64,000 nucleotides of DNA. Origin: Corynebacterium liangguodongii. Its GTDB lineage: Bacteria; Actinomycetota; Actinomycetes; Mycobacteriales; Mycobacteriaceae. This document shows, in pieces, positions 12,086 to 16,317 of this stretch (within the stretch, counting starts at the first letter, position 1; every line of letters starts with the position of its first letter). The position numbers and the translations under genes were made by a program. Below the pieces are notes generated by a model. It did not search any database. It saw only the letters and a list, made by a program, of their open reading frames with translations, and was not told the DNA's origin. The stretch covers positions 1,302,001 to 1,366,000 of the forward strand of contig NZ_CP026948.1 of the NCBI RefSeq assembly GCF_003070865.1, read 5' to 3'.

Positions 12086-12718
12086 GTGACCAATTCCGAG
12101 ACCCCAGTCCACGCGCGGCAGGCGAGCTCTGGCGATACCGCCGGCGACAACGCCGCCTCGCCCGCGGAATTCCGGGCCGCCGTCGAGTCCATGCACGCGG
12201 CCTCCCTGCGCCCGGAGATTACCCTCGGCACGATCCGACCCCCGCAGCGGCCCGCTCCGTATAGCCACGCCATCGGGCTGGAAATCTCCCGCGAGCACCC
12301 CGCCGCCTCCCCGCTCGATGCCGAGGCCGACGCGTTCGGCCGCCTCATCTTGCTCCACTCCCCCGACGCCGAAGAGGCATGGGAGGGCTCCATGCGCCTC
12401 GTCGCCTACATCCAGGCAGACATGGACGACGCGGTGGCCTCCGACCCCCTGCTCCCCGACGTGGCCTGGCAGTGGCTTGGTGAATCTCTGGAGGAATGCG
12501 GCGCCGGGTACACTAACCTGGGCGGGACCGTGACCTCGACGTCCTCGGTGCGTTTCGGGGAGATTGGCGGCCCGCCGCGCGCCTACCAATTGGAGATGCG
12601 CGCGTCGTGGACCGCAGACGGCATCGATCTCTCCTCCCACGTGGAAGCTTTTGCGAAGGTGCTCGCTCACGTTGCGGGCTTGCCCCCCGAGGGCGTGGCC
12701 AAGCTCGGCGCTCGATAG
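12086..12718 (+). CDS. DUF3000 protein
   Basis: A 210-residue cytoplasmic actinobacterial protein of unknown function. It is identified by its place directly before RNase D and by the family-like core RPAPYSHAIGLEIS and GWASMRLVAYIQAD-type sequence around residue 110. It is largely acidic, with no signal, membrane segment or cysteine cluster. GTG 12086 lies eight bases after TAGCGT (12072-12077), so a leaderless start is likely. The stop is 5 bases before the rnd start, and the two probably form an operon. No role is proposed. Confidence 0.75.
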   Translation: MTNSETPVHARQASSGDTAGDNAASPAEFRAAVESMHAASLRPEITLGTIRPPQRPAPYSHAIGLEISREHPAASPLDAEADAFGRLILLHSPDAEEAWEGSMRLVAYIQADMDDAVASDPLLPDVAWQWLGESLEECGAGYTNLGGTVTSTSSVRFGEIGGPPRAYQLEMRASWTADGIDLSSHVEAFAKVLAHVAGLPPEGVAKLGAR

Positions 12719-12723
12719 GGATC

Positions 12724-13905
12724 GTGGCCGCATTCGAGCTCGTCGCGGACCCGCGCGCTTTTCGACGCGCAGCCGACGCGCTTTCCTGCGGGCGCGGCCC
12801 GTTCGCGGTGGATACTGAGCGCGCCTCGAACTTTCGTTACGACGACCGCGCCTTCCTCGTCCAGGTCTACCGGCGCGACGCAGGGACCTTCCTTATCGCC
12901 CCGGAGGGACACCGGGACGCCGTCAAAGACATCTTCGCCCCAGTGCTCGGCGGCGGCGAGTGGGTCCTCCACGCCGCCGGGGAAGATCTCCCCAGCCTGG
13001 GAGCGCTGGGCCTTTATCCCGGCGCGGTGTTCGACACCGAGCTCGCCGGCCGCCTCGCCGGGTTAGAACGCACCAACCTCGCCGCGGTCGTGCGCGAATT
13101 CACGGGCGTGGAGCTGCAAAAAGGCCACGGGCGCGAGGACTGGTCACAGGTTCCGCTTCCCGACGCCTGGTTGCAATACGCCGCACTAGACGTCGCATAC
13201 CTTCTCGACGTCGCCGAGGCGCTCACAGAATACCTCGATCGGGCGGGCAAGCTCGATGCGCTGCGTCAGGAGCTTGACCACGTCGTCGATACGCATGGCC
13301 CCCATAACCGCCCCACGCCGAAGACGTGGCGCGACCTCAAGGGCGTGTCCCGCCTGCGCCAGCCGGAGAGCCTTGCTGTGGCCCAGGCGCTATGGGAGCG
13401 CCGGGACGAGATTGCCTTCGCTGCCGACGCCTCGCCGCACAGCGTCCTTCCGGGCTCCGTCATCATCGCCATCGCCGCTTCCCTGCCCGCCACTCCCCGC
13501 GAACTCGCGGCCATCAAGGGTTTTCCCGCGCGGCGACGCGGAGAGACCGGGAGGTGGTTCGACGTCGTATCCCAGGCCTACTCCACCCCGCGGGAGCAGT
13601 GGCCGCTTCCCCACGACCCGCCCCCGGGACCACCCAGCAAATCTGCGTGGCAGAGGCATCACCCTCAATCGTGGGAGAGGCTCGTCGCGGTGCGAGAGGC
13701 GCTCGCCTCCCACGCCGCGCGGCTCGACATCGCCCCCGAGGTCCTTCTCACGCCCGCGGTGCTGCGGCAGGTGGTGTGGGAACTGAGCACGCATCAGTTG
13801 AGCGAGACCGATACCGTAGCGCGGGCCCTCTCACATGCCGGTGCGCGCGAATGGCAGGTCGCGGCCGTTGCCCCCACAATCGCCGCACGCATCCGCAGTA
13901 TGTAG
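12724..13905 (+). CDS. rnd: Ribonuclease D-like 3'-5' exonuclease with HRDC domain
   Basis: A 393-residue DEDD-family exoribonuclease. The catalytic acids are visible: Asp30 and Glu32 (FAVDTERAS), an Asp in HAAGEDLPSLG, and YAALDVAYLLDV with the final Asp. An HRDC nucleic-acid-binding domain follows (about 215-290), then a second helical domain. RNase D trims tRNA and other stable RNA 3' ends. GTG 12724 was chosen because it lies 5 bases after the DUF3000 stop and begins the conserved AAFELVADP. A longer reading would run backwards through DUF3000. The gene is followed directly by the palindrome array. Confidence 0.9.
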   Translation: MAAFELVADPRAFRRAADALSCGRGPFAVDTERASNFRYDDRAFLVQVYRRDAGTFLIAPEGHRDAVKDIFAPVLGGGEWVLHAAGEDLPSLGALGLYPGAVFDTELAGRLAGLERTNLAAVVREFTGVELQKGHGREDWSQVPLPDAWLQYAALDVAYLLDVAEALTEYLDRAGKLDALRQELDHVVDTHGPHNRPTPKTWRDLKGVSRLRQPESLAVAQALWERRDEIAFAADASPHSVLPGSVIIAIAASLPATPRELAAIKGFPARRRGETGRWFDVVSQAYSTPREQWPLPHDPPPGPPSKSAWQRHHPQSWERLVAVREALASHAARLDIAPEVLLTPAVLRQVVWELSTHQLSETDTVARALSHAGAREWQVAAVAPTIAARIRSM

Positions 13906-13962
13906 CCCTGCACGGCGGCGCTGGATGGCCCGGGAATACGAGGGGCGCCTCAGTCTTGGTGG

Positions 13963-14341
13963 ACTCTGCAGCTGCGGAGTCGGGGTGTGGGTGGGAAACT
14001 CCGCAATGCGGAGTCCGTAGGAAGGTCACTCCGCCGTTGCAGAGTCACGGCACAACCCGAGAAAGTCCGCAATGCGGAGTCCGTGGGACGGTCACTCCGC
14101 CGCTGCAGAGTCACGGCACAACCCGAGAAAGTCCGCAATGCGGAGTCCGTAGGAAGGTCACTCCGCCGCTGCAGAGTCGGGATGTGGGCGGGAAACTCCG
14201 CAATGCGGAGTCCGTAGGAAGGTCACTCTGCGGCCGCGGAGTCGGGGTGTGGGTGGGAAACTCCGCAATGCGGAGTCCGTAGGAAGGTCACTCCGCCGCT
14301 GCAGAGTCGGGATGTGGGCGGGAAACTCCGCAATGCGGAGT
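13963..14341. repeat. Six-unit tandem array of alternating palindromes (BIME-like)
   Basis: Six repeats with a period of 65-66 bp fill the gap between the 3' ends of rnd and dxs. Each unit has palindrome P1 (18 bp, ACTCYGC-NGCY-GCRGAGT), a 16-18 base spacer, palindrome P2 (17 bp, ACTCCGCAATGCGGAGT or with AGTCC), and a near-constant 13-base linker CCGTAGGAAGGTC. P1 starts are 13963, 14028, 14094, 14160, 14225 and 14290. P2 starts are 13998, 14064, 14130, 14195, 14260 and 14325. Two spacer classes occur: CGGGRTGTGGGYGGGA (units 1, 4, 5, 6) and CACGGCACAACCCGAGAA (units 2, 3). It resembles bacterial interspersed mosaic elements. The flanks 13906-13962 and 14342-14391 show nothing recognisable. 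Confidence 0.93.
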
Positions 14342-14391
14342 CTGCGAACCCCGTCAGCCAGGCCGCCCGTGTGCAGGTATTAAGGGAGGAC

Positions 14392-16317
14392 CTACTGGCG
14401 GTACGCCAAAGTCCATTCGCGCACCTGCGCCTCCACAGACTCGGCGTCAAGCCCGTAGTCCCGCAGGATCTCGGAGCGCGACGCGTGCTCGGGGAAAATG
14501 TCCGGGAAGGCTAGCTGCCGCAACGGCGTGTCAACTTCGACGGCATTGAGGGCTTCACCCAGCGCGGATCCGACTCCCCCGCGCACGACCCCGTCCTCGT
14601 AGACTACGACCATGTCAGCCCGCTCCGCCATCTCGATAAGGGTGGGGTCAATGGGGATGACCCACCGCGGGTCGACGACGGTCACGCGCACCCCGTCAGC
14701 GGCGAGGTTCTCCGCGGCGAGTATGGCGTTTTCGGCGAAGCTGCCCACGGCAACGAGGAGGACGTCGAGGTCGCCCGGCCCTGGCTCGCCGGCGGGCCGG
14801 AACAACACATCGACGCCCGATGGCGTGCGCTCGATGGCCTCGATATCCGCCCCGACGTCGCCTTTGGGGAAACGCACCACGGTCGGACCTGTCTCGTGCG
14901 CAATGGCTTCGCGGAACTCCTCCCTCAGCCGCGCCGGGTCGCGGGGGGCGGCGATGCGTATGCCCGGCACCACCGAGGCGATGGCGAGGTCCCACACCCC
15001 GTTGTGGCTCGCGCCGTCGGAACCTGTCACGCCCGAGCGATCCAGTACGAGGGTGACCGGCTGCTTGATCAAGCCGACGTCCATGAGAAGTTGGTCGAAG
15101 CCGCGGTTGAGGAACGTCGAATAGATGGCCACAACGGGGTGGAGCCCGCCGAGTGCAAGGCCCGCGGCGGAGGTCACGGCGTGCTGCTCTGCGATGCCGA
15201 CGTCAAAAAATCGCGCGGGGAACTCTTCGGCGAAAGGGGTGAGCCCTGTGGGCCCAGCCATCGCCGCCGTGATGGCCACGATGTCGTCGCGCTTACGGGC
15301 GGCAGCGAGGAGTTCTTCCGAAAACACCGAGGTCCACCCCGGTGCCGAGGCGCTCAGTGCCTCGCCCGTGACGGGGTCGATGGCCCCCGTGGAGTGCATC
15401 TGGTCGGCGACGTGGTTGACCGCTGGAGCGAATCCGTGGCCTTTCTCCGTGGCCACGTGGACGATGATCGGCCCGGCGTGGGTGCTGGCGTAGTTCAGGG
15501 CATGGAGCAGCGCCTTGACGTCGTGCCCTTCGACTGGGCCGATGTATTTCATGCCGAGCTCGGGGAACATCTCCGATGGCACGACCTGCGTCTTCACGCC
15601 CTCCTTCAGGGCACTCAGCGCCTCGAAGGCCCGCTCGCCGACCCACCCCATGGATTGCAGAGTGCGCTTGCCGGATTCCATCATCTCGTCGTACTTACGC
15701 TGCATTCGGATCTGCGCGAGCTGGTCGCGCAGGCGGGTGAGGTTTTTCGCGAACCCACCGATAGTCGGCGAATACGACCTTCCGTTGTCGTTGACGACGA
15801 TCACAACGTTGCGCTCCCCCGCCGCGATGTTGTTCAGCGCCTCCCAACACATCCCGCCGGTGAGCGCGCCGTCGCCAACCACGGCAACGACTCGGTCCTC
15901 GCCGCGCCCGGCGAGTTCCTTTGCTTTCGACAGCCCGTCGGCGTAGGACAACGCGACGGAGGCGTGGGAGGATTCGGTAAAGTCGTGCGGGGATTCCGCG
16001 CGGGAAGTGTAGCCGGACAGGCCGCCCTTCTTACGCAGGGTGTCAAACATTCCGGCGCGCCCGGTGAGGATCTTGTGCACGTATGACTGGTGCGAGGTAT
16101 CGAAGATGATCGGCTCGCGCGGCGAATCGAAGACGTAGTGCAGTGCGATGGTGAGCTCTACGACGCCGAGGTTGGGGCCGAGGTGGCCGCCGGTGGCGGA
16201 GACCTTCTCGATGAGCAGCTGCCGGATCTGCCCCGCAAGCTCCTCAAGTTCGTTGACGTCGAGGTGTTTGAGGTCCGCCGGCGACGTGATCGAGTCCAGC
16301 AGGTTCACGGTAAACAC
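14392..16317 (-). CDS. dxs: 1-Deoxy-D-xylulose-5-phosphate synthase
   Basis: A thiamine-diphosphate enzyme that condenses pyruvate and glyceraldehyde-3-phosphate, the first step of MEP isoprenoid synthesis. The 641 residues are full length. Visible motifs are the TPP/Mg site [20 protein letters not shown] with NDN, the catalytic-glutamate segment [21 protein letters not shown], and the C-terminal transketolase domain. Start GTG 16317 has AAAGGAG 5 bases upstream. The leader contains short GTGCCT direct repeats and a small hairpin CTAAGG-GGG-CCTTAG at about 16352-16366. Its stop lies about 50 bases beyond the last palindrome of the array, so the array is its 3' neighbour and may affect its mRNA end. 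Confidence 0.97.

Follow-up and report, generated by a model that had tools for sequence, protein, structure and literature searches.

Alternating palindromes between rnd and dxs of Corynebacterium liangguodongii and their putative pairing with resident DUF222-HNH nucleases

The window analysed here is a stretch of 64,000 nucleotides from Corynebacterium liangguodongii (contig NZ_CP026948.1 of RefSeq assembly GCF_003070865.1; G000:C1:1302001-1366000, where G000 denotes the window's genome, a single contig of 2.36 Mb, and other genomes and loci carry G and L numbers likewise), and its feature of interest is a tandem array of palindromes at positions 13963..14341. The array sits between convergent 3' ends, as the original prediction had placed it. 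The rnd gene (ribonuclease-D-like; 12607..13905, plus strand, stop at 13905) matches Pfam PF01612, PF18305 and PF00570 and the NCBIfam rnd model below its cut-off, and its start codon at 12607 is an unsure, longest open reading frame (ORF) choice; dxs (14392..16317, minus strand, stop at 14392) matches PF13292, PF02779 and PF02780, as well as the NCBIfam dxs model above its cut-off. Tandem Repeats Finder (TRF) reports the array at 13963-14342 (period 65, 5.8 copies, 86% matches, score 504), and reading of the sequence resolves it into six units of 65-66 bp, each composed of a B palindrome, a spacer of 17-18 nt, an A palindrome and a 13-nt linker. Both readings confirm the six units and the two palindrome kinds with related arms that had been described.

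The 12 palindromes, read directly from the sequence and given no strand, alternate strictly, six B with six A. Palindrome B is 18 bp long (ACTCYGC-N4-GCRGAGT) and occupies 13963..13980 (B1, ACTCTGC-AGCT-GCGGAGT), 14028..14045 (B2), 14094..14111 (B3), 14160..14177 (B4), 14225..14242 (B5, with the centre GGCC) and 14290..14307 (B6). Palindrome A is 17 bp long (ACTCCGC-N3-GCGGAGT) and occupies 13998..14014 (A1, ACTCCGC-AAT-GCGGAGT), 14064..14080 (A2), 14130..14146 (A3), 14195..14211 (A4), 14260..14276 (A5) and 14325..14341 (A6); two of the six copies, A2 and A3, are hybrids with one mismatch that begin with AGTCCGC in place of ACTCCGC. The A-to-B linker measures 13 nt in 5/5 cases, in keeping with the constant linker claimed earlier, and four of the five contain GTAG. 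B-to-A spacers fall into two types, measuring 17 nt in units 1, 4, 5 and 6 and 18 nt in units 2 and 3, and the predicted order by class (A, B, B, A, A, A) was thus right (17, 18, 18, 17, 17, 17 nt). No terminator-like site (stem-loop plus T run) was found on either strand of 13850-14450, a promoter reading of the array region found nothing, and no Rfam family matched 13700-14600 at E up to 1, a result on which an Rfam-described structured RNA was rejected. An array of clustered regularly interspaced short palindromic repeats (CRISPR) was also rejected, since the spacers are themselves repeated rather than unique (Cas genes were not searched).

Related palindromes are scattered through the rest of the genome, and 71 exact copies of ACTCYGC-N(2-6)-GCRGAGT occur in its 2.36 Mb compared with a single match to the reversed-pattern control. 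Together with the RNA fold of the rnd-dxs array (z = -6.35; 0/100 shuffles equally stable), these counts bear out a non-chance origin. The copies form 11 clusters (192, 269, 300, 336, 631, 899, 1066, 1278, 1316 (window), 1717 and 1918 kb), and the 10 places beyond the window, as well as copies in other Corynebacterium species, answer the earlier suggestion that scattered copies be looked for. Palindrome B is found at most clusters and A at several, with linkers that vary between clusters, and the A palindromes at L033 form an inverted pair. The 899-kb array (L034) is an inverted homologue of the rnd-dxs array (76.8% over 272 bp), and some arrays are copies of one another, linkers included. By simple ORF calling the palindromes, 17-18 bp each, fall between genes whose orientation is convergent at five places (L029, L030, L037, L038 and the window), divergent at three (L031, L033, L036), co-directional at L035 and undecided at L032 and L034. 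The alternation of B and A in extragenic arrays supports the layout resembling bacterial interspersed mosaic elements (BIMEs) that the original prediction had proposed, and its reading of the array is partly supported as a whole.

A point beyond the view of the original prediction is that each of the two palindrome kinds also directly precedes a particular DUF222-HNH nuclease gene. The gene recurring at array flanks across species encodes an HNH endonuclease whose DUF222 domain is either weak or clear, and two of the four DUF222 genes in the C. liangguodongii genome have A/B-type palindromes directly upstream: the HNH gene at 299.7 kb (L031), beside menA, is preceded by two B palindromes, and the HNH gene at 631 kb (L033), beside thiO, by two A palindromes (menA and thiO being named via NCBIfam). 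These are divergent DUF222-HNH endonuclease genes, and their L031 and L033 products match PF01844 (HNH) at 2.7e-10 and 5.2e-09, respectively. Against the PF02720 (DUF222) cut-off of 24.4 bits, the L033 protein scores 30.5, and the L031 protein 23.0, or 24.7 with its neighbours in a six-frame search. The other two DUF222 genes (L206, L207) have no palindrome of the A/B plan upstream; at L206 a single unrelated inverted repeat lies ~395 bp upstream of the open frame. The probability of two such HNH genes among 22 array neighbours is ~6e-4 if 2150 genes are assumed.

The same pairing is seen in a comparison set of 201 Corynebacterium genomes, one genome per species. Close orthologues of the menA-side gene (clade 1) occur in five of these (G000, G020, G075, G021 and G058; 592-1035 bits, with the next match at 420 bits), and B palindromes lie upstream in 5/5 (L031, L195, L201, L094, L187). 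The five genomes also have the highest single-palindrome counts among the 47 genomes counted (71, 26, 24, 18 and 17 for G000, G020, G075, G021 and G058). The clade-1 orthologues are 62-65% identical as proteins, and near them the palindrome arms are kept while the linkers look unrelated, which argues for selection on recognition. For clade 2, the first four loci inspected (L033, L205, L196, L044) have ACTCC-type A palindromes upstream; all four had been fetched because of their palindromes. A tandem version of the ACTCYGC pattern is present in 9/201 genomes (reversed control, 1), and with the four remaining carriers (G051, G087, G130, G137), which have A-type palindromes upstream of the HNH gene, 9/9 tandem carriers combine an HNH gene with a matching upstream palindrome.

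Array contents agree with the resident HNH types, as counted at loci chosen by the ACTCYGC pattern. Where the enzyme half-site is CTC (G000; 9 loci), the A-type palindromes comprise 8 CTC/CTC, 10 hybrid and 0 GTC/GTC forms; where it is GTC (G020; 5 loci), the corresponding numbers are 0, 8 and 8. A genome with both enzymes (G075; 7 loci) contains 7, 16 and 20, and one with a CTC copy disrupted by a premature stop (G058; 3 loci) contains 1, 13 and 5.

A genus-wide survey was based on HNH genes fetched by protein match. At 1e-40 there were 109 HNH matches in 55/201 genomes, of which 94 from 48/55 genomes were assembled as genes, with start codons chosen by script, and 15 were left out. Perfect inverted repeats (arms of at least 8, loop of at most 5) within 350 bp were found upstream of 52/94 genes (88 repeats) and downstream of 9/86 (9 repeats), while shuffled upstream sequence yielded a palindrome for 3.4 of 94 genes. 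From the nearest palindrome end to the start codon the median distance is 128 bp, and this end lies between -82 and -265 in 55/58 labelled genes. Most labelled palindromes follow a shared plan, the half-site A-S-T-M-Y-GC around a 3- or 4-nt centre, which is descriptive rather than a test because it was built into the labelling search. Among 206 arms, position 1 is A in 176, position 2 is C in 126, G in 60 and T in 20, position 3 is T in 194, position 4 is C in 104, A in 78, G in 18 and T in 6, and position 5 is T in 102, C in 98 and A in 6.

The palindromes co-vary with the phylogeny of the enzymes. When the labels of 57 rows are mapped onto a tree of 93 HNH proteins, the half-site label requires 19 changes compared with 31-42 (mean 36.9) in label shuffles, none of 500 reaching the observed value, and centre length requires 7 changes compared with 13-24 (mean 18.7). 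One row, L224, is labelled GAC though its main palindromes are ACTATGC. Since a genome-level correlation through mere ancestry is difficult to exclude fully, paralogues within a genome were also compared, and the palindromes of labelled HNH paralogues differ in 23/23 pairs; in four of these pairs one label is TAT, possibly a promoter element and not a cognate palindrome, and 19/19 differ without them.

A second palindrome, ACTATGC-N-GCATAGT, was first seen upstream of HNH genes and then searched for across the genus. The pattern is present in 23/201 genomes, with at least 2 copies in 16 (reversed control, 2), and 15/16 multi-copy genomes are among the 55 HNH carriers (hypergeometric 1e-8). A copy lies upstream of a fetched HNH gene in 13/16; many of these were known beforehand from the upstream regions, and the new information consists of the copies away from the genes and the near-absence of the pattern in other genomes. 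Of 145 copies, 110 lie away from fetched HNH genes (e.g., 15/17 in G205).

The rnd-dxs site itself is empty in 6/6 relatives (G020, G021, G075, G058, G137 and G016, the first five of which are tandem carriers). The ends of the rnd and dxs protein matches are 24-127 bp apart in these genomes, and no A, B or ACTATGC palindrome is present at their rnd-dxs locus. Because of these empty sites, the array is most simply explained as a gain in the lineage of C. liangguodongii.

Copies of the gene together with its palindromes, as well as a different palindrome in other genera, extend the arrangement. One genome (G148) has five HNH matches (L289, L291-L294), including three near-identical copies (96-98%) of the HNH gene with its upstream palindromes, located apart from one another; two of the three share an identical 3' edge just past the stop, and each is preceded by GATGCACGTGCATC palindromes, which occur 2 to 8 times in exact form within 1 kb upstream. 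Another (G083) has five close HNH copies (about 90-96%), with arrays of a ~45-bp palindromic unit upstream of the three inspected. Among 150 genomes of the order, HNH alignment matches at 1e-20 occur in 25. Distant DUF222-HNH genes have a palindrome (arms of at least 8) upstream in 15/26 and within 400 bp downstream in 8/26, counts for which there was no shuffle control. A GTTCC-type palindrome lies on both sides of the gene at L308, L318, L319 and L322, its start lying 4-48 bp from the stop codon as counted from the codon's first base. The sequence GTTCCCGCGGGAAC is present in 33/150 order genomes, up to 12 times, whereas its reversed control is found in 5 genomes, once each; in G229, GTTCCCGCGGGAAC forms 29-bp tandem copies.

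The encoded enzymes retain the residues expected of HNH nucleases, the HH-N-LCxxCH signature being kept in 93/94 proteins (the exception, L205, is truncated by a stop). An AlphaFold model of the clade-1 enzyme (mean predicted local distance difference test, pLDDT, 73.7) predicts the N-terminal helical domain with confidence and the HNH domain with fair confidence, but its predicted template modelling score (pTM, 0.37) is low. A Foldseek search with this model gave no match at E below 0.001, with no plausible match for the helical domain; weak matches, confined to the HNH part, were to ScoMcrA, a Geobacter HNH nickase and similar proteins (best E 0.026).

The rnd-dxs array seems fairly likely to be a cluster, dispersed and amplified in tandem, of the palindromes that two HNH nucleases of the same genome would recognize. 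The best-supported element of this proposal, resting on position and co-variation, is that each nuclease would recognize its own palindrome: B, with the 4-nt centre, is assigned to the HNH enzyme at 299.7 kb beside menA, and A, with the 3-nt centre, to the HNH enzyme at 631 kb beside thiO. The nuclease would nick or cut at or near its palindrome and thereby provoke repair, which may copy palindromes and linkers into new intergenic places and lengthen the tandem arrays; the dispersal, the empty sites and the copied arrays are the reasons for suggesting that copying and growth are driven by nicking or cutting. With two nucleases in one cell and an arm sequence common to A and B, units that combine B and A could form and then be copied jointly. 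The overall logic would resemble that of repetitive extragenic palindromic (REP) sequences and BIMEs with their REP-associated tyrosine transposases (RAYTs), with an unrelated HNH enzyme in place of the RAYT. A preprint describing REP13E12 regions as gene-conversion hotspots (PMC13061034) fits cutting-driven copying. The wider proposition, that DUF222-HNH nucleases of Corynebacterium and its relatives constitute a large family of enzyme-palindrome pairs in which each enzyme reads a palindrome of its own (half-site A-S-T-M-Y-GC with a 3- or 4-nt centre in Corynebacterium, GTTCC-type in other genera) and HNH cutting and host repair copy the palindromes, or the enzyme along with them, around the genome, is put forward more tentatively, as a possibility with somewhat less than even chances; it would represent an independent, non-Y1 invention similar to REP/RAYT and would give the 13E12 family a function.

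Several observations weigh against the nuclease-recognition proposal. Just 2/11 array places in C. liangguodongii touch an HNH gene, and 42/94 HNH genes are without a perfect palindrome (arm of at least 8) in the 350 bp upstream, some of them with shorter palindromes and some with none. The HNH genes beside menA (5 species) and thiO (3/4 loci) keep their position in relatives, and the gene itself is therefore not moving there. Half-site labels were set after the data had been seen, and 36/94 genes are unlabelled and outside the tree test, including most near-identical copies of G083 and G148. In three multi-copy ACTATGC genomes (G083, G108, G158) none of the fetched HNH genes is preceded by an exact copy, and single-copy genomes are divided between HNH carriers (4/7) and genomes without an HNH match (3/7). 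Residue covariation with the half-site did not outline a clear DNA-reading surface, and the cluster linked to arm position 4 (residues 267-287) is a weak lead only. Furthermore, an upstream position fits an operator and a mobile unit equally well, and the B carriers may be close relatives, with genome-level correlations that partly reflect common ancestry.

The main rival is autoregulation, in which the palindromes serve as binding sites that let the HNH protein, or a partner of it, regulate its own promoter, and distant arrays are spare or regulatory sites that the enzyme does not move. The distance of the palindromes from the start codon would suit an operator, and the conservation of arms beside clade-1 orthologues despite unrelated linkers suggests selection for binding; nevertheless, this explanation accounts neither for the insertion of an array between unrelated genes, as at the empty rnd-dxs sites, nor for tandem growth, nor for the palindromes right after stop codons in other genera (L308, L318, L319, L322), and it is considered unlikely. 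Common ancestry alone would make the palindromes ordinary intergenic repeats of lineages that also keep HNH genes, with no functional link. The possible close relationship of the B carriers and the persistence of some array places by descent (L038, L194) are compatible with this, yet it is improbable in view of the enrichment on the upstream side of HNH genes, the concentration of multi-copy ACTATGC repeats in HNH carriers, the same arrangement with another palindrome in other genera, and paralogues of one genome that differ in every labelled pair while clade mates elsewhere share palindromes.

Three further readings, among them the roles and the mobility suggested by the original prediction, fare less well. 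A two-way transcription end or mRNA 3' stabilizer for rnd and dxs would suit the convergent 3' ends and the stable RNA fold, but an intrinsic-terminator role is not supported, no terminator-like site having been found, six relatives manage without an array at rnd-dxs, and palindromes also occur away from 3' ends, such as upstream of HNH genes and aspS; a role of this kind is quite improbable as the cause of the array, and any effect on transcription ends could be a by-product. Slightly harder still to credit is a self-marking, restriction-like system in which unmodified copies would be cut by the HNH enzyme while modification shields the palindromes of the chromosome: the HNH domain does resemble McrA-type modification-dependent restriction enzymes in the weak Foldseek matches (6ghc, 5zmm), but amplification of a cut site would not be expected. 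The chances that the array is a canonical BIME moved by a RAYT (Y1) transposase are close to negligible. Alternating palindromes in extragenic arrays and the GTAG in most A-to-B linkers at rnd-dxs recall such elements, but the complete genome contains 0 matches to PF01797, where the TnpA-REP gene anticipated earlier should have appeared (the same search was positive in 5/14 control genomes), and by eye GTAG is not kept at the palindrome foot in the other arrays inspected.

The nearest known systems are the REP/REPIN/BIME-RAYT elements (REPtrons), which the rnd-dxs array resembles in its short extragenic palindromes, paired units and tandem arrays; in both, a genome contains several families of palindromes, and each family has a cluster next to an enzyme gene of its own. 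Pairing of the BIME/REPIN kind is seen in the B-A alternation at rnd-dxs and the inverted A pair at L033, and the palindrome length of 17-18 bp, slightly below the ~20-40 bp of REPs, is still of REP size. The differences are that the enzyme is a DUF222-HNH protein rather than a Y1/HUH tyrosine transposase, that no GTAG tag is conserved, that the palindromes of Corynebacterium lie mainly upstream of the gene, and that copies number in the tens, whereas REPs reach hundreds. Without a RAYT or a kept GTAG, the array is REP/RAYT-like but not a member of that group. HNH homing endonucleases, which spread through break repair, share the HNH chemistry, and break-repair spread would follow a similar logic; the presumed target here is a repeated palindrome beside the gene, rather than an allele lacking the gene. 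For REPs, co-evolution of enzyme and palindrome with clusters for each family has been proposed (PMC3116915, PMC3733652), and one Pseudomonas has three RAYTs, each with its own adjoining REPIN cluster (PMC3116915). CGTC-type REPs are described as a palindromic repeat family apparently without a dedicated transposase (PMC3733652); they have another tag, and a candidate enzyme is present here. The names REP13E12, HNH endonuclease and DUF222 occur together in PMC10589994, and the preprint cited above attributes no defined biological function to the REP13E12 regions of mycobacteria. REP13E12 belongs to the same broad protein family and is multi-copy; compared by description only, it differs in that the source text available does not mention palindrome arrays. 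A literature search of titles, abstracts and some passages (most subscription journals lying outside its scope) yielded no link between DUF222/HNH proteins and palindromic repeats. Because the enzyme class differs and the literature searched describes no family with such a pairing, the enzyme-palindrome pairing is regarded as new, although a stricter reader could place the array among REPs.

DUF222-HNH ('13E12 repeat') proteins are widespread in actinobacteria. With enzyme matches in 55/201 Corynebacterium genomes and 25/150 genomes of the order, a private palindrome beside each gene would give dozens of these enzymes a target that can be tested at once. Should recognition prove real, the proteins would represent a set of naturally orthogonal HNH nucleases with palindromic sites of 17-18 bp, REP-like mobile palindromes would have a second origin, and a possible cause of gene-conversion hotspots would be at hand.

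Insertion sequences (IS) were observed near some of the arrays. An IS256-family element (Mutator transposase) is present in C. liangguodongii as seven near-full-length copies plus four partial matches, and two copies, L029:3502-4961 (190.5 kb) and L037:3276-4735 (1715.1 kb), share one orientation and have a palindrome array ~50-140 bp away. End sequences of the type gggctacttttcg..., presumably IS21-like, directly adjoin arrays in several species (L186, L199, L202 and the edges of L029, L035 and L037), and palindrome arrays may be insertion targets of such elements. IS ends were dropped as a source of palindrome A: IS21-like ends or IS256 copies stand beside some arrays, and none was seen beside the rnd-dxs array.

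A scan of GTDB r220 for the ACTCYGC tandem pattern, which may omit the C. liangguodongii genome itself, returned 109 stretches, 8 of them from Corynebacterium (C. lipophiloflavum, C. urinipleomorphum, Marseille-P3884, Marseille-P4321 and p3-SID1145); the remaining 101 are mostly single matches in unrelated taxa. One contig of an Oligoflexia metagenome-assembled genome (L091), an unrelated bacterium, has seven matches at its start. In two species an extracellular-nuclease-like gene, the same in both, is followed at its 3' end by tandem arrays of 9 and 12 units (L038:4951-5272 and L194), which agree in palindrome arms and differ in centres (CGCT versus AGCG) and linkers. Two species (L191/L192; G020 and G075) share a 3.0-kb segment next to an array at 98.5% identity, which in L191 carries a cation-efflux gene and a portion of a GmrSD-type restriction gene. 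Their dxs proteins are each only 83-84% identical to that of the window, and a recent transfer between species is a possible explanation. Several arrays are found at contig ends in C. lipophiloflavum (G021), and palindrome arrays may disturb assembly, though three arrays of G020 (L188, L189, L190) lie just 3' of the 5S rRNA at three rRNA operons.
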